From: Bacillota bacterium
Lineage (GTDB): Bacteria; Bacillota_C; Negativicutes; JAEYSJ01
Assembly: GCA_023434855.1 (NCBI GenBank)
Contig: JAEYSJ010000125.1
Coordinates: forward strand, 1 to 7,212
Direction of reading: 5' to 3'
DNA length: 7,212 bases
Shown here: positions 36 through 5,793 of the stretch, piece by piece
Numbering within the stretch: the stretch's first letter is position 1
How the letters are laid out: each line of letters begins with the position of its first letter
Translations under genes and position numbers: made by a program
The notes under the pieces: generated by a model
The model's input: the letters and a program-made list of their open reading frames with translations, nothing else
The model's database searches: none
Told to the model about the DNA's origin: nothing

Positions 36-506
36 TTAAATTGTTTCACTGATTTTCTTTATAATATTTGTTGAAGATCTTCCAGCAACTTCAGGAACTA
101 ATACTGTTTTCCCACCATTAGCAGCTACAATCTTAGCTTCCGGAATCTCCTCTATGCAATAATCGCCACCCTTTACATAAATATCGGGTTTGACTTCGTC
201 AATCAAACTCTCGGCGGTTCGTTCATCAAATATAATCACATAGTCAACAACTGCCAGAGCAGCAATTACTTCAGCCCGGTCCTCTTGATGATTAACAGGG
301 CGGGTTGGCCCCTTCAATTCTTGGACAGAGCGGTCACTATTAAGGCCTACAATAAGACACGCCCCAAGCTTTTTAGCCTCAGCTAAATAGCGGACATGGC
401 CGGCATGGATAATATCGAAACAGCCGTTGGTAAATACAATTGTTTTACCAGCGGCTTTATTATTGCAGACAATTTCTCTAAGTTGCGAACGATCAATGCA
501 TTTCAT
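36..506 (-). CDS. rfaE2: D-glycero-beta-D-manno-heptose 1-phosphate adenylyltransferase (RfaE2 / HldE C-terminal-type)
   Basis: This cytoplasmic enzyme transfers AMP from ATP to heptose 1-phosphate, giving the ADP-heptose used for the LPS inner core. The 156-residue protein is a complete cytidylyltransferase-like fold. It has FTNGCFDIIHAGH near residues 25-37 with the nucleotide-binding HxGH signature at 34-37, GLNSD at 54-58, VKGGDY at 111-116 and the closing GRSSTNII at 142-149. Length fits stand-alone RfaE2 proteins. The frame stays open upstream to position 575, but that stretch codes for the kinase C-terminus in another frame. I chose the ATG at 506-504 because the family homology begins just after it and a GAGGT lies 4 bases upstream, a slightly short spacing. 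The gene overlaps the kinase gene by 14 bp, which suggests translational coupling. In E. coli the two activities are fused as HldE; here they are separate. Family assignment is very secure. Confidence 0.95.
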   Translation of the reverse strand: MKCIDRSQLREIVCNNKAAGKTIVFTNGCFDIIHAGHVRYLAEAKKLGACLIVGLNSDRSVQELKGPTRPVNHQEDRAEVIAALAVVDYVIIFDERTAESLIDEVKPDIYVKGGDYCIEEIPEAKIVAANGGKTVLVPEVAGRSSTNIIKKISETI

Positions 507-1497
507 AATGACCTCGCACCGCTTCCTGAAGTTCTTTGAGTGTAGCTGTTGCCGTACCTGGTTTTCTAACAACAATGCCTGCTGTGAAATTAGCCAGACT
601 AGCGGCTTCTACGTAAGTGGCACCGGCAGCAACAGCTAAAATCATTGCAGCAACCACTGTATCGCCCGCACCCGTAACATCATACACTTCACTGACATTC
701 GTAACCGGAATATGGGTTACTTTGCCCGATTTCTCAAAAAGCGTCATTCCATCAGGGCCTTGGGTAATCAGTACCGCTTCCGCCTGAAGTTGATTTAAGA
801 TTTCATTCCCGGCACTGAGCAAAGACTGCTCGTCAAGTGATTTTAATCCGACTGCAGCTGCCGCTTCTGACTCATTTTGTTTGACGATCGATACATCTTT
901 ATATTGCATGACCTTATAACGGGAATCAACAACAGACGGTATGCCATGTGAAAGGCAAGTATCAATGACCGCCCGTAAGACAGCCGAAGTTACTGTTACG
1001 CCGCCGTAGTCACTTAAAACTACTGCATCCATCTGTGGAATGATTTCCCGTATATAATTTATGATCCGTCCTTCAATATCCTGGCTCAGCGCGTCTTTTT
1101 TTTCCCGATCAATGCGTACAACTTGCTGGCGCACGGTGGCTTGCCCACCAGCCATTACCCGAGTCTTGGTAATAGTCGGCCTGGTAATATCCGGGATGAG
1201 GCCCGCTGTTATTACACCCTTAGATTCCAGTTTCCGGGCAAGCTCCTGCCCAGGAAAATCATCACCAACAACGCCTACAGCATACACCTGTCCGCCTAAT
1301 GTAGCGGTGTTGTGTACGGCATTGGCCGCACCACCAGGGACGACGTTTTCTGCAGTATGTTCCAGAATCAGTACAGGGGCTTCCCGCGAAATGCGGGAAA
1401 TCCGTCCCTCTAGGTACACATCAGCGATCATATCACCGATTAACATAATTCTTTTATTTCTCATTTTACTGATAATTTGCAGTAACGCTTCTCGCAT
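493..1497 (-). CDS. rfaE1: D-glycero-beta-D-manno-heptose-7-phosphate kinase (RfaE1 / HldE N-terminal-type)
   Basis: PfkB/ribokinase-family sugar kinase that phosphorylates heptose 7-phosphate at C1, the first activation step towards ADP-heptose. Numbering from the chosen start (334 residues), it shows LIGDMIADVYLEG near 19-31, the HldE-type RISREAP near 35-41, the substrate-binding PGGAANAVHN at 54-63, an NxxE motif (N208, E211) and the catalytic DVTGAGD ending near 279. The DNA frame extends to a GTG at 1512. The ATG at 1497 is preferred because GAGGA (1510-1506) sits 8 bases before it; the intermediate ATG at 1506 has that motif right on top of it. The gene follows the lptD-like stop codon directly and overlaps rfaE2, so the three form one operon. 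An oddity is SDYGGV near 162-167, where the family usually has DYxKG. Function is secure; start choice is moderately secure. Confidence 0.94.
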   Translation of the reverse strand: MREALLQIISKMRNKRIMLIGDMIADVYLEGRISRISREAPVLILEHTAENVVPGGAANAVHNTATLGGQVYAVGVVGDDFPGQELARKLESKGVITAGLIPDITRPTITKTRVMAGGQATVRQQVVRIDREKKDALSQDIEGRIINYIREIIPQMDAVVLSDYGGVTVTSAVLRAVIDTCLSHGIPSVVDSRYKVMQYKDVSIVKQNESEAAAAVGLKSLDEQSLLSAGNEILNQLQAEAVLITQGPDGMTLFEKSGKVTHIPVTNVSEVYDVTGAGDTVVAAMILAVAAGATYVEAASLANFTAGIVVRKPGTATATLKELQEAVRGHYEMH

Positions 1498-1505
1498 CCG
1501 GTTCA

Positions 1506-1510
1506 TCCTC
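1506..1510 (-). promoter_or_regulatory. Shine-Dalgarno of rfaE1, next to the lptD stop codon
   Basis: GAGGA lies directly after the TAA stop of the lptD-like gene (1515-1513), with 8 bases to the ATG at 1497. It decides the start among three in-frame candidates (GTG 1512, ATG 1506, ATG 1497). Its position at the stop codon suggests that ribosomes finishing lptD re-initiate on the kinase gene. Confidence 0.6.
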
Positions 1511-1512
1511 AC

Positions 1513-2895
1513 TTACCATTTAACGGCATCTACTTTTACCCTAACTTCTTTCCGTTTGGCTCTGTACGTAATATCCGCTTCAAAACAATGCAGATTACGA
1601 CGCCATGTATAATCTATATCCTTAGTATTGCCATGCTCCAAATCATACCGTACTTTTGCACCCAAACCATTTAACCGGTCTATCTGGTACATAAAGCCAA
1701 TTTTTCCTTCTTCCGCTACATCAATCCGGTCAAATTCATATGGTGTAGTGCCGATATCGCTGCTATAGCTGTACCCCAGCCAAGTATTTAACCGGCTATT
1801 CGGTTTTATATCCACACGGGAATCAAAGTGGAATACACTATTGGCAGAATCATTATATCCATAAAAATTACGGTCAAATCCTGTTCCCAGCTTAAGCGTA
1901 GCTTTAGAGCCAAGCTTAATAGGATCATTGGCTAAATACATACTAAAACCCGAATGAGTACCTCTGACATCCCCCTCATTCCATTGTCCCCAGGCTGCAG
2001 ATGCATTCAGTGTCAAAGAACTAGCTCCCAGGCGCTGTGAACTTAGCTGCAGCGAGAGCTCCGGTTCTTTTTTGATCCATTCATGATCATCATTTTCATC
2101 ATTACCGTAACTCAATTTAGCCGTAAAGTTGCTGTTGCGGCTAATTAGGCCATACATTGGCTTGAAATTTACTTTACTGTAGTAATCGAGGTCCGCAAAG
2201 ACTGCCAGACTTGGACTGAAGGGAACTTCCAGATGCTGCGAAATGCCGATGCCGTTATCCGATGAATAGCTCGGTTTCGGAAATGCAACACTTGCCCCCT
2301 CGCCTTCCCGTAAAGAAGCCTGATATCTTGGCAATGAAAAAATTACCGTATTTTTAATCCAGAACTTAGCATTGTAGGCAATCATTTTATCGCCAGGCCA
2401 TATTTCCACTCTTTCGGCACTGATATGATAATCGGGCACCTCTGCCGGACAGCCCGTAACCGTTCCCTCATTCATAGTGGTATGCACAGGAGAGGTAGTA
2501 ATTGCTTTGCTGGTGATATGCAGATGCTCAATTGTACCTTTGCTAGACTGCATACTGCCGCTGTGATCGTTCAAATTATAGCGCATACCCGTAGTGGTAA
2601 GCTCCATTCCCGGACGGGAAAGCACCGCTTCACCATCTGTCCAGACTTCATTCTTCTGTGTATTGCCTTTAAGAAGATTAGCCGCTACTTTATCCTCATT
2701 TTGCTTAATTTGAACATTTCCTCTCGCATACAGATCGCCAGTAGAATCACTGAAATACAGCTCATCAGCCTCTACCACAATCGGCGCCTTGGTAGTTGAG
2801 GAGCTGTTAGACGGCTTAGCAGGAGCCGCACTTGCCGTCCCGAATACAAAAATGAGGGCTAATAACCCAATCATTACTTTTTTGGATTTATTCAT
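1513..2895 (-). CDS. lptD: LptD-like LPS-assembly / OstA-family outer-membrane protein, short form
   Basis: Likely the OM component that receives LPS from the periplasmic Lpt bridge and inserts it into the outer leaflet. The 460-residue protein starts with a signal peptide (cleavage probably after ASA at 21-23). Residues about 38-130 form an OstA/LptA-like beta-jellyroll (IVVEADELYFSD, ARGNVQIKQ). An LptD hallmark follows at about 144-190: GTVTGCP, PDYHISAERVEIWPGDK, YNAKFWIKN and SLPRY. The remaining 270 or so residues look like amphipathic strands and end in Trp, as in many beta-barrel proteins. It is much shorter than E. coli LptD (784 residues), so the barrel must be small. Only two cysteines exist, C149 and C437. 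AAGGAG lies 6 bases before the ATG. It opens the operon with rfaE1 and rfaE2, which supports an LPS role. The alternative is an LptD-related OstA protein with a different client. Confidence 0.85.
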   Translation of the reverse strand: MNKSKKVMIGLLALIFVFGTASAAPAKPSNSSSTTKAPIVVEADELYFSDSTGDLYARGNVQIKQNEDKVAANLLKGNTQKNEVWTDGEAVLSRPGMELTTTGMRYNLNDHSGSMQSSKGTIEHLHITSKAITTSPVHTTMNEGTVTGCPAEVPDYHISAERVEIWPGDKMIAYNAKFWIKNTVIFSLPRYQASLREGEGASVAFPKPSYSSDNGIGISQHLEVPFSPSLAVFADLDYYSKVNFKPMYGLISRNSNFTAKLSYGNDENDDHEWIKKEPELSLQLSSQRLGASSLTLNASAAWGQWNEGDVRGTHSGFSMYLANDPIKLGSKATLKLGTGFDRNFYGYNDSANSVFHFDSRVDIKPNSRLNTWLGYSYSSDIGTTPYEFDRIDVAEEGKIGFMYQIDRLNGLGAKVRYDLEHGNTKDIDYTWRRNLHCFEADITYRAKRKEVRVKVDAVKW

Positions 2896-2942
2896 AAATT
2901 GCTCCTTCTAGCATTAACTTACAGTATGTCCATCATTCAACT

Positions 2943-2971
2943 AATTCGCTGTTTGTCGTCTTTTTCCTGCC
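2943..2971 (-). promoter_or_regulatory. Putative sigma-H-type promoter of the lptD-rfaE1-rfaE2 operon
   Basis: On the minus strand GCAGGAAAA is followed by 11 bases and then AGCGAAT. This fits every defined position of the known sigma-H consensus RNAGGAWWW-N11/12-RNNGAAT, as in B. subtilis spoVG. Transcription would start near 2936, about 40 bases before the lptD ATG and after the previous gene's terminator. The match is seen directly; use by sigma-H is inference. No convincing sigma-A promoter was found in this gap. Confidence 0.6.
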
Positions 2972-2974
2972 TCT

Positions 2975-2981
2975 TTCGACA
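2975..2981 (-). promoter_or_regulatory. Possible Spo0A (0A) box upstream of lptD
   Basis: The minus strand reads TGTCGAA, an exact match to the 0A box TGNCGAA. It ends four bases before the GCAGGA of the sigma-H-like -35 element. Seven-base matches occur by chance (roughly one per few kb), so support comes mainly from position, since known Spo0A-controlled sigma-H promoters carry such boxes near the -35 region. Confidence 0.35.
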
Positions 2982-3004
2982 TAGTAATGAAAGGCAGATA
3001 TGGC

Positions 3005-3040
3005 AAAATAGCGCCAGACATGGCACATGCTGGCGCTATT
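3005..3040 (-). terminator. Intrinsic terminator after the repeat-containing exported protein gene
   Basis: An 11-bp perfect stem (3007-3017 with 3030-3040, containing AGCGCCAG/CTGGCGCT) encloses a 12-base loop. The loop can itself form a 4-bp CATG/CATG stem with a GCA tip. On the minus strand a short T run (four T) follows. It lies 9 bases past the TAA at 3051-3049. The short T run makes it weaker than the other terminators here. Confidence 0.75.
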
Positions 3041-3048
3041 ATCTCCAT

Positions 3049-3960
3049 TTATTTGACTTTTAAACCATAAACACTGGCTTCGGTTTTTGTTTGAATATAG
3101 AGCTCCGCTCCAGCAGGAATCGTTACATCTTTGCCATGAATAAAAGCCCCACCGACAACACCGACAGGCCCTAGCACAATCAGTCCGGCAACAGTAGCTC
3201 CTGCAGCTTTGGCTAGAGATTTAGTCTCTTCCTTGGCCTTATCGCCCAGGAAAGTCTGCACTTCAGTTCCGTCAAAGGCCTGCAGAGTATCGAAACTTAG
3301 ATCCAGCTTCGCATCCCGGCCAAAATTTCTTGCCTGCTGGACTTTCAGTACCTTGCCTGCACCAACTGCCCCCTTGGCAATCACCAGGACGCCGTTGCTA
3401 TAGACATCTTCCGATGCTTGAAAAGCAAAGGAATCACCCTCCCGGTTTTGGCGGGTATCTAGCGGAGTAACCATCTTAATCTTGACAAGAGTGTCTTGAA
3501 AGAGCGTAACTTCACTTATTTCCGGGGATTCGGTAAAAGCAATATTGGTTACTTTTGTAATTCGCTTATCAAAAGCCCCGGTTGCAGGTGCTCCGATCAG
3601 CAGCTGTTCTAACTGCTCCAGTTTTTGTTTAGCCGGTACAGCCGTTTGATCATGGCTGATTGCCCATTCAACAGCATTTAACCGCGTAATTAAAGAAGGA
3701 GCGGTTAGTGTATTCTCTTTGGAATAGGTATAAAGCTTGTCCGCTTTCCCCATCAAAGCATCTTTTGATTCAGTGCCATAAATATCTTTTTCCAGCCTGG
3801 TAAGACGTTCCGATAAAGAACCGGTTTGATCCGTTCCATATAAAACTTGCTCTACTGCTTTGGTTTTGTCCACTATTGTTAATTCTGCATGTTGAGCAAA
3901 AACAGGTGTACTTGCTAATAGCAGTACAGCAAGCGTACTAGAAATCCATTTGCGTAGCAT
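3049..3960 (-). CDS. Exported protein with N-terminal 27-residue repeats and a C-terminal beta-rich domain, function unknown
   Basis: I do not recognise a characterised homologue. The 303-residue protein has a signal peptide (MLRKW, hydrophobic stretch, cleavage likely after FA at 21-22). Residues 36-62 and 117-143 are equal-length, alignable repeats with the pattern xEQxLxG, then TG, then R (VEQVLYGTDQTGSL versus LEQLLIGAPATGAF). A partial copy (ITRLNAVEWAI) lies near 91-101. From about 150 onward the chain is beta-rich, with PLDTRQNREGDSFAF and IAKGAVGAGKVLKV, loosely resembling the barrel of VirB10/TrbI-like proteins. A glycine-rich hydrophobic segment at 252-274 is followed by IPAGAELYIQ. 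There are no cysteines. GGGAGGGG lies a few bases before the ATG. It stands alone between two terminators, among envelope genes. Role in the periplasm or at the OM is inferred only from export and context. Confidence 0.88.
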   Translation of the reverse strand: MLRKWISSTLAVLLLASTPVFAQHAELTIVDKTKAVEQVLYGTDQTGSLSERLTRLEKDIYGTESKDALMGKADKLYTYSKENTLTAPSLITRLNAVEWAISHDQTAVPAKQKLEQLEQLLIGAPATGAFDKRITKVTNIAFTESPEISEVTLFQDTLVKIKMVTPLDTRQNREGDSFAFQASEDVYSNGVLVIAKGAVGAGKVLKVQQARNFGRDAKLDLSFDTLQAFDGTEVQTFLGDKAKEETKSLAKAAGATVAGLIVLGPVGVVGGAFIHGKDVTIPAGAELYIQTKTEASVYGLKVK

Positions 3961-4052: not shown

Positions 4053-4490
4053 TTAGATTTTAACGTCAATCAAGGCCGACAAACCTACGCCTTGAACACG
4101 GGAGAAGTTAGTAGGATTCTTGCTGTCAATCGGAATTAATACTTTGGCCCGGAATTGCCTGCCGTTGAAGTTTCCTTCAGCCTGCAGAACAGCTTGCACT
4201 TGATCTACTAATTCCGGTGAGCCCATTACCTGCGCTGCTCCAATGTAGCCACCACTGCCTATGGTAATAATCGGTACTACCTTGGTAGCATAGTCATGAC
4301 CGCCACCACTTTGGAAAGTAAGCGTGTTGATAAACTTATTGAGTGGTCCGGAAAACTTATCAATTAAGATCCCTATGCCACCCACTTTTAGTACATCACC
4401 AAGACTAAACGCCTGTGTAACAGGTACAGCTGCAACTGACAGGAGGCAAAAGAGCAGCAAACCGATAACAAAGGATTTTTTTGTTTTCAT
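4053..4490 (-). CDS. Small exported protein of unknown function
   Basis: The 145-residue precursor has a clear signal peptide (MKTKKS, then a hydrophobic run, cleavage probably after TQA at 25-27), leaving about 118 residues. I recognise no known domain. The mature part starts with FSLGDVLKVGGIGILIDKF, then a polar SGGGHDY at 61-67 and two glycine-rich hydrophobic strands (VVPIITIGSGGYIGAAQV, 71-88). It ends in an apparently beta-structured tail with VLIPIDSK and VGLSALIDVKI. The one cysteine (C15) is inside the signal peptide and is not in a good lipobox (LLFC, with Phe at -1), so a lipoprotein is unlikely. AAAGGGGG lies 6 bases before the ATG. It has its own promoter and terminator and sits between envelope genes, which suggests a periplasmic or OM-associated role. 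That is inference. Confidence 0.85.
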   Translation of the reverse strand: MKTKKSFVIGLLLFCLLSVAAVPVTQAFSLGDVLKVGGIGILIDKFSGPLNKFINTLTFQSGGGHDYATKVVPIITIGSGGYIGAAQVMGSPELVDQVQAVLQAEGNFNGRQFRAKVLIPIDSKNPTNFSRVQGVGLSALIDVKI

Positions 4491-4611: not shown

Positions 4612-5580
4612 CTAGAATTTAATGCTAACAGTGGTACGGAAAGAGGTGTTCTTTTGAGAACTGTCCACCACTTTTTTCATATCGCGCAGGAAGAACTTCA
4701 CAGTGGTATCTTTGTTGTACTTATAGTTGTAACCATAGTACATACCCTTCCAGCCGGATTCATAATCAGTCCAATCGTTCATATCTGCTAATTCTTCAAT
4801 TTTGTAGTTAATAGCGTAGAAGGTATTCTTAGCATCCGGCGAGTACGATACGCCTAAACCATAAGCACTATTATCAGAGTCGGCATTGGATTTACCATAT
4901 TCAGCAAAATAAGATGCTTTGCCTTGATCATAACCAGCATTTACTGCCCAATGATTAGTATCATCCTGGGAAGAATCTTTATAATCATACTTCGCCAAGG
5001 TTCCTCCCAAAGTCCAGTTTTGAGCAGGGCTATAGGATGCAGAAAGCGCGAATAATTTATTTTCATCAGAGCTAGCTTTTCTGTCTTCTTTTAAAGCAAT
5101 AACTTTTAAATCAGTTACGCCAGACTTACCAGTTATAGTGATACCATCAGCAAACATATATTTGCCAAGATAAGGGCTGGTATTGTAGAAAATAGCAGTC
5201 GAGCCAACACTAGCATCCTGACGGCCTATTTTGTAGCTAAATCCGTTCGTATCTTTGAAAACAAAGCCGAACTGATCAATAGCTGCTGTATTTTCTCCAC
5301 TTGTTGCATCAGAAGAGAAATCCTTACCAATTGTAGCATGTTGAGCAGCAAAACGAGCGAAGAAATCTACATTTTTACCAACATTAGTAGTAGCGTTTAA
5401 GATAAGAGTTGATTTGAAACCATCTTCATTGTCTGGAGCATCAGTAACATTATCCCAGGTATTATAACGATACTGGTGCTCAAATTTTCCATCGAATTCG
5501 ATAGGAGCGGCGAATACACTACCAGCGGTAGTCAGAACGAAGGCGGCTGCCAATGCAGCGGTAAGAGCTTTTTTCTTCAT
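4612..5580 (-). CDS. Porin-like outer-membrane beta-barrel protein without an SLH domain, related to the OmpM barrel
   Basis: Predicted OM channel of 322 residues. The signal peptide (MKKKALTAALAAAF, cleavage likely after VFA at 22-24) is followed directly by barrel-like sequence of alternating polar and hydrophobic strands rich in Tyr, Phe, Asn and Asp. It ends in Phe (VSIKF), the usual barrel-assembly signal. There are no cysteines. Homology to the neighbouring OmpM is visible by eye. IGRQD at 118-122 matches IGRHD there. The last 47 residues align without gaps (GWKGMYYGYNY versus GVKGLGYGFNY, then D, K and a final F at the same spacing). It lacks the SLH and coiled-coil segment, so it cannot tether to peptidoglycan the same way. 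AAGGGGG lies 8 bases before the ATG. Own promoter region and terminator make it monocistronic. Substrate is unknown. Confidence 0.88.
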   Translation of the reverse strand: MKKKALTAALAAAFVLTTAGSVFAAPIEFDGKFEHQYRYNTWDNVTDAPDNEDGFKSTLILNATTNVGKNVDFFARFAAQHATIGKDFSSDATSGENTAAIDQFGFVFKDTNGFSYKIGRQDASVGSTAIFYNTSPYLGKYMFADGITITGKSGVTDLKVIALKEDRKASSDENKLFALSASYSPAQNWTLGGTLAKYDYKDSSQDDTNHWAVNAGYDQGKASYFAEYGKSNADSDNSAYGLGVSYSPDAKNTFYAINYKIEELADMNDWTDYESGWKGMYYGYNYKYNKDTTVKFFLRDMKKVVDSSQKNTSFRTTVSIKF

Positions 5581-5765: not shown

Positions 5766-5793
5766 TATTCGATCAGAATTCGTAAACTCCTGC
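5766..5793 (-). promoter_or_regulatory. Putative sigma-H-type promoter upstream of the SLH-less porin gene
   Basis: The minus strand reads GCAGGAGTT, 11 bases, ATCGAAT. This matches the sigma-H consensus RNAGGAWWW-N11/12-RNNGAAT at all defined positions except one W (a G). Spacing is identical to the copy before lptD. Transcription would start near 5758, giving a leader of roughly 175 bases. Confidence 0.5.

Follow-up and report, generated by a model that had tools for sequence, protein, structure and literature searches.

It has long been asked how bacteria with two membranes coordinate the building of the outer one with engulfment. Acetonema longum keeps an outer membrane throughout sporulation, and links to sporulation have been drawn for the origin of the outer membrane in Firmicutes as well as for its loss (PMC5007114). 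The window described here, a stretch of 7,212 nucleotides from contig JAEYSJ010000125.1 of a member of the Negativicutes, poses this question at a promoter in front of genes for lipopolysaccharide (LPS) assembly and heptose synthesis. The genes listed for the window, from the SLH porin to hldC, all lie on the minus strand:

7212-5963, minus strand: SLH porin, cut by the window end (open reading frame)
4612-5580, minus strand: porin-like gene of 322 amino acids (open reading frame) behind a second sigma-H-like site
4053-4490, minus strand: protein of 145 amino acids without a known family, with no match in Pfam and NCBIfam searches
3049-3960, minus strand: gene upstream of lptD, 303 amino acids, no known family, a conserved neighbour
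1513-2895, minus strand: lptD-like gene for LPS assembly, 460 amino acids, named from profile matches, orthologue names and synteny
493-1512, minus strand: hldA-like heptose-7-phosphate kinase (TIGR02198, 321.4 bits, below the cut-off of 345)
36-506, minus strand: hldC-like heptose-1-phosphate adenylyltransferase (TIGR02199, above cut-off), overlapping hldA

The LptD name is based on family-profile matches of the LptC type and to LptD, both of them weak, on a profile match to solved LptD chains with an E value of 1.6e-4, and on the source names of orthologues. The name is also given because the synteny fits the published lptD cluster, in which lptD and the gene before it are conserved and syntenic in all Negativicutes, and LptD was located in the outer membrane in a study of Veillonella parvula (PMC5491611). 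The hldA frame begins directly at the lptD stop codon with no gap between them. Relatives of hldA and hldC are found downstream of lptD in 23/23 loci, although not directly behind lptD in L017, L019 and L023. The 303-residue gene stays beside lptD across much of the class, and a possible equivalence to LptE has been suggested for its counterpart in Veillonella (PMC5491611). The nearest genome is that of Anaerospora hongkongensis (G001), the one genome of its genus in the sample. Between the window and A. hongkongensis the 145-residue protein shows 98.6% identity, compared with 84% for LptD, and its identity in the other loci where it is found is 64-74%.

The gap before lptD is 153 nt long and features a terminator-like hairpin followed by the sigma-H site:

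3003-3040, minus strand: terminator-like hairpin with a T run (scan, sequence and RNA fold)
2975-2981, minus strand: TGTCGAA, perfect core of a putative 0A (Spo0A) box, 4 nt before the -35 element
2962-2970, minus strand: -35 element GCAGGAAAA, conserved in spo0A-positive genomes
2944-2950, minus strand: -10 element AGCGAAT, 11 nt behind the -35 element
2936-2938, minus strand: transcription start predicted from the spacing to the -10 element

The minus strand across the site reads ...CATTACTATGTCGAAAGAGGCAGGAAAAAGACGACAAACAGCGAATTAG..., in the order TGTCGAA (2981-2975), AGAG, GCAGGAAAA (2970-2962), 11 nt and AGCGAAT (2950-2944). The initial annotation had described a sigma-H motif matched at every defined position with TGTCGAA 4 nt upstream of it, and both descriptions are confirmed; the site matches 13/13 defined positions of RNAGGAWWW-N11/12-RNNGAAT with a spacer of 11. 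The site also fits the SigH form given in PMC4754846, (A/G)(A/C)AGG(A/G)(A/T)(A/T)(A/T)-N11-12-(A/G)(A/G)(A/C)GAA(A/T). The strict motif occurs once in the whole window, where first-order simulations give an expectation of 0.023 (7 of 300 simulated windows had at least one), and the expectation for the lptD strand of the 153-nt gap is 0.0007. A sigma-70-type scan of 2400-3400 gave no minus-strand site, in agreement with the earlier description of the sigma-H site as the only good promoter in the gap. RNA folding of 3001-3045, ahead of the promoter, gave -21.6 kcal/mol, and the terminator-like hairpin would separate the upstream gene from the lptD promoter. The sigma-H part of the site is very probably a real promoter.

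The reading that we prefer, with a probability of roughly 0.75, is that in Negativicutes that form spores, transcription of the lptD-hldA-hldC operon begins at a sigma-H promoter. RNA polymerase carrying SigH would read GCAGGAAAA-N11-AGCGAAT and start at about 2938-2936, and the preceding transcript would be ended by the terminator ahead of the lptD promoter. If SigH starts this operon, LPS export and heptose supply would follow SigH activity from growth into stationary phase and the entry into sporulation. Statements on the host rest on the genomes of its relatives, from which we infer the use of SigH in this organism, its timing and its benefit.

The comparison with A. hongkongensis shows which parts of the region are kept. 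Identity is 11/11 in the block that has the 0A core at its end, 0/4 in the 4 bases between this block and the -35 element, 9/9 in the -35 element, 8/11 in the spacer, 7/7 in the -10 element and 12/22 in the 22 bases behind it, the pattern that selection on a promoter would leave. The SigH protein of A. hongkongensis scores 374.7 bits (cut-off 294.8), and Spo0A and SpoIVA are also present. The genome contains 59 strict N11 sites vs 4 for the reversed control pattern; 47/59 lie outside long open reading frames, which were picked mechanically, and for 36/59 a predicted start also follows 24-90 nt downstream. The genes behind these sites include spo0A, spoIIAA, dnaG (two sites) and rpoD as well as those for HPF, XerD and GalU, all but spo0A named here by matches above NCBIfam cut-offs, and those for a SpoVD/FtsI-like penicillin-binding protein and a ZapA-like protein, both below the cut-offs. 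That canonical SigH genes carry the motif supports its being read by SigH in this lineage.

Clostridioides difficile is a single-membrane organism and, to our knowledge, has no LPS genes for SigH to control. Its SigH targets include spo0A, spoIIAA, spoVD and a sigA gene (PMC7438776), and like C. difficile, A. hongkongensis has the SigH motif before spo0A, spoIIAA, the SpoVD/FtsI-like gene and rpoD. A closer system is Sporomusa sphaeroides, which shares its bacterial family with relatives compared here. Start-site mapping of strain KIAC placed the SigH motif AGGA...GAAT at 322 start sites, with the same AGGA and GAAT elements as at the lptD site and a core spacing of 17-18 nt (PMC12456013). A term search of the main text of PMC12456013 did not return the words lptD, LPS or outer membrane.

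The distribution of the site was determined in a sample of 150 genomes of the class around A. hongkongensis. A match to lptD was found in 147/150 genomes, SigH over the family cut-off in 136/150 with weaker or partial matches in 11 more, Spo0A over cut-off in 55/150 and SpoIVA over cut-off in 51/150, and most of the 136 genomes with SigH lack Spo0A. Upstream DNA was analysed in 130/150 genomes; those left out had no lptD match (3), a weak or partial one (8), a locus cut by a contig end or frameshifted (6) or were near-copies (3). G025 and G032, with less than 120 nt of upstream DNA, were then dropped, giving 128 genomes (45 spo0A-positive and 83 spo0A-negative).

Within 330 nt before lptD, 40/45 spo0A-positive vs 2/83 spo0A-negative genomes have a match of at least 12/13 positions; within 550 nt the counts are 42/45 vs 4/83. 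The reverse-strand control gave 0/45 and 1/83, and the perfect 13/13 form is found in 19/45 and 0/83. Shuffled upstream DNA gave best motif scores that average 10.3 and 10.1, and control genes of the same regions carry a site in 7/58 cases in spo0A-positive and 21/494 in spo0A-negative genomes. The spacer is 11 nt in 39 of the 40 spo0A-positive sites within 330 nt. Three of the six cut or frameshifted loci were inspected outside the main counts: G082 (spo0A-positive) has a 13/13 site, and no site was found before lptD in G060 and G136 (both spo0A-negative). The initial annotation had proposed this comparison of spore formers with non-spore formers and had named an absence of conservation in close relatives, or equal conservation in lineages lacking sigH and spo0A, as results that would speak against it; the comparison came out as predicted and neither of these results was observed, since relatives keep the site and genomes without spo0A seldom have it.

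There are some exceptions to this distribution. Three spo0A-positive genomes have no site even at 550 nt (G024, G034 and G043); SpoIVA is present in G024 and missing in the other two. Pectinatus (L022 = G018), with no Spo0A over cut-off, has a strict match before lptD and the spo0A-negative G054 has a 12/13 match at a similar place; both sites look as if they overlap a terminator-like arm and T run. G003, G020 and G087 are spo0A-positive with perfect sites and no SigH over cut-off (best E values 1.7e-14, 2.0e-9 and 2.9e-9), where the missing SigH is likely due to assembly gaps. At the Pelosinus loci L004-L007 a TATAAT overlaps the sigma-H spacer and the AGGA or GAAT has decayed in some of them, which suggests a transition between two promoter types.

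Kinship matters here, and these genome counts are not independent events. The LptD tree requires at least 7 changes of spo0A, and well-supported branches force 5 of them. Five independent genome pairs gave 3 for, 0 against and 2 neutral, a result that is not significant (p = 0.25), and the use of SpoIVA as the marker (2 pairs) or of either gene (4 pairs) was not significant either. In the pair tests G041 and G044 were set positive by hand, their sites lying beyond 330 nt, and in the spo0A pair test G054 and G078 were set negative by hand; the family of G040 is represented by 2 genomes. The tie of the lptD site to spore formers is thus supported by the distribution, with too few independent events behind it.

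The explanation that survives best beside the preferred one accepts the promoter as real and treats SigH as a general factor of the growth or energy phase, with lptD merely one member of a large regulon and no special bond to sporulation, so that spore formers would keep the lptD site because they keep a large SigH regulon. We regard this as a serious possibility that falls somewhat short of even odds. The 322 starts in S. sphaeroides belong to a broad regulon that is active during growth and includes acetogenesis and envelope genes, the envelope being among the enriched classes, and sigH rises on H2/CO2 (PMC12456013). In Listeria monocytogenes, a non-spore former, SigH with the same consensus as at the lptD site drives competence genes (PMC4754846), so SigH need not mean sporulation. 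Across the class, strict sites fall together with spo0A, from a median of 62.5 per genome in 46 spo0A-positive genomes (46 of 47; G032 was left out of the genome-wide table) to 22, 11 and 7 in three large spo0A-negative clades. However, the median in nine other spo0A-negative genomes is still 46 sites (control 4), and a 12/13 site before lptD is found in none of them. Likewise, the spo0A-negative clade of 27 has 739 strict sites vs 55 for the reversed control, and between this clade and the nine other genomes only G054 reaches 12/13 before lptD.

The remaining genome-wide counts against the reversed control are 2944 vs 288 in the 46 spo0A-positive genomes, 257 vs 42 in a spo0A-negative clade of 23, 169 vs 98 in a Veillonella-like clade of 24, and 352 vs 40 in the nine other spo0A-negative genomes; the clade names Veillonella-like and Selenomonadaceae-like are tentative assignments. 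A loss of the lptD site through the loss of SigH itself was rejected, since SigH is kept in nearly the whole class, and the loss at lptD follows the sporulation genes rather than SigH. A collapse of the whole regulon fits the Veillonella-like clade and not the others. G084, one of the nine genomes, carries SpoIVA and probably represents an incomplete spore former. In G071, G088, G096 and G121 the SigH matches reach only 168.9-222.3 bits (cut-off 294.8) with few sites genome-wide, and the task of SigH may have changed there.

The proposal that LPS transport and heptose synthesis are linked to sporulation therefore stands in part. The sigma-H assignment is well supported by conservation, by the canonical genes of A. 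hongkongensis and by the published Sporomusa mapping. Since SigH is common in genomes without Spo0A, the lptD promoter need not serve sporulation only, and with the breadth and growth-phase activity of SigH described for Sporomusa, the phrase "linked to sporulation" may be too narrow.

Lineages without sporulation genes would start lptD from another promoter or have a shrunken gap that puts lptD directly behind its upstream neighbour. A perfect TATAAT at -200 to -15 before lptD is found in 20/23 genomes of the spo0A-negative clade of 23, with 4 on the reverse strand. The clade of 27 has 8 vs 6 on the reverse strand, the Veillonella-like clade 0/24 and the other nine genomes 2, and TATAAT also stands before lptD in 12/47 spo0A-positive genomes. 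A general switch of non-spore formers to TATAAT was rejected, the signal being clear only in the clade of 23 by this crude measure. In the Veillonella-like clade the lptD gap is only 8-37 nt in 18/24 genomes, so lptD there must be read from upstream. The lptD cluster of V. parvula has the same synteny as the window, but the Veillonella-like genomes mostly have no intergenic room for a promoter.

A second alternative is that Spo0A directly controls the promoter through the TGTCGAA beside the -35 element, making lptD a joint target of Spo0A and SigH; we consider this unlikely, at about one chance in four. The exact core is present in the window and in A. hongkongensis, within the fully identical block that is followed by four diverged bases. 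It occurs once in the window, where about 0.94 is expected on both strands, with about 0.002 expected in 30 nt of one strand, a test that was chosen post hoc. At this place the exact core is limited to the window and A. hongkongensis; among 39 spo0A-positive lptD promoters it is present in that of A. hongkongensis and missing from the remaining 38. At a fixed place on the opposite strand, 17/39 promoters have TGTAGAA, which differs from the 0A core by one base, and a core with at most 1 mismatch is found within 60 nt in 20/39 vs 5.4 expected from shuffles, an excess that is not independent because the 39 promoters are related. However, TGTAGAA lacks the C at position 4 of the core, which is a contact base (PMC3485338), and forms part of a longer conserved stretch. 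Near the 59 sigma-H sites of A. hongkongensis the exact core is found at 3, and one-mismatch cores show no excess (10 vs 7.7). The link to Spo0A through the 0A box, as put forward in the initial annotation, is not supported in that form, and the tie of the lptD promoter to Spo0A appears weak.

Alignment of the 39 spo0A-positive lptD promoters shows a conserved stretch of approximately TTTTCTACATATTRCCG, 12-28 nt ahead of the -35 element; its opposite strand reads TGTAGAA in 17 of these promoters. A matrix score of at least 10 within 400 nt was obtained in 33/45 spo0A-positive genomes, a count that is partly circular, and in 8/83 spo0A-negative genomes. The element in the window itself (2998-2982) is weak, with a score of 4.1. 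As a general part of SigH promoters the element was rejected: the 59 A. hongkongensis sites give a median of -11.0 at the same offset, compared with -15.8 for random background and a leave-one-out median of 11.6 for the lptD promoters. Possible roles of the element are weak binding of Spo0A or binding of another activator, and part of it may instead belong to the terminator tail.

That the site is unused, its match being chance or a relic with lptD read from upstream or from an unrecognised sigma-A promoter, is very improbable: the short gaps of the Veillonella-like clade show such reading from upstream, but the boxes here are conserved with strand bias, a terminator-like hairpin stands ahead of the promoter and no sigma-70-type site was found on the lptD strand of the gap.

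Further sigma-H-like sites lie in the neighbourhood of lptD. A second sigma-H-like site was found by motif scan before the porin-like gene at 4612-5580:

5767-5793, minus strand: GCAGGAGTTTACGAATTCTGATCGAAT, matching 12/13 positions

A. hongkongensis also has this site (5793-5767), though within a block that is 88% identical over its full length. The 322-residue protein had no match in Pfam and NCBIfam searches, so the term porin-like reflects its setting and look. Open reading frames for SLH porins near lptD have a site of at least 12/13 within 450 nt in 23/33 cases in 15 spo0A-positive genomes and in 5/35 cases in 17 spo0A-negative genomes; another gene-picking script with a limit of 330 nt gave 17/28 and 3/30. 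SigH may control a wider set of envelope functions that includes LPS export.

A broader picture can be offered tentatively, and we hold it to be rather less than an even bet. Outer-membrane assembly in diderm spore formers would be wired into the circuit that opens sporulation, with SigH driving both the LPS-export and heptose operon and the neighbouring SLH porins, helped by the conserved TTTTCTACATATTRCCG element that some regulator, perhaps Spo0A, would read. After the loss of sporulation, lptD would have been rewired to sigma-A or to its upstream neighbour. In the open PMC literature no report of a link between SigH and lptD was found.

The sigma factor that opens sporulation apparently also turns on the LPS-surface genes of spore formers with an outer membrane, and relatives that lost the sporulation genes seem to have lost the sigma-H switch at lptD as well. 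The most cautious formulation places LPS export of spore-forming Negativicutes under the control of the transition-phase sigma factor. With a sigma-H promoter before lptD in almost every sampled spo0A-positive genome and in very few others, the link between the outer membrane and sporulation can be tested cheaply.
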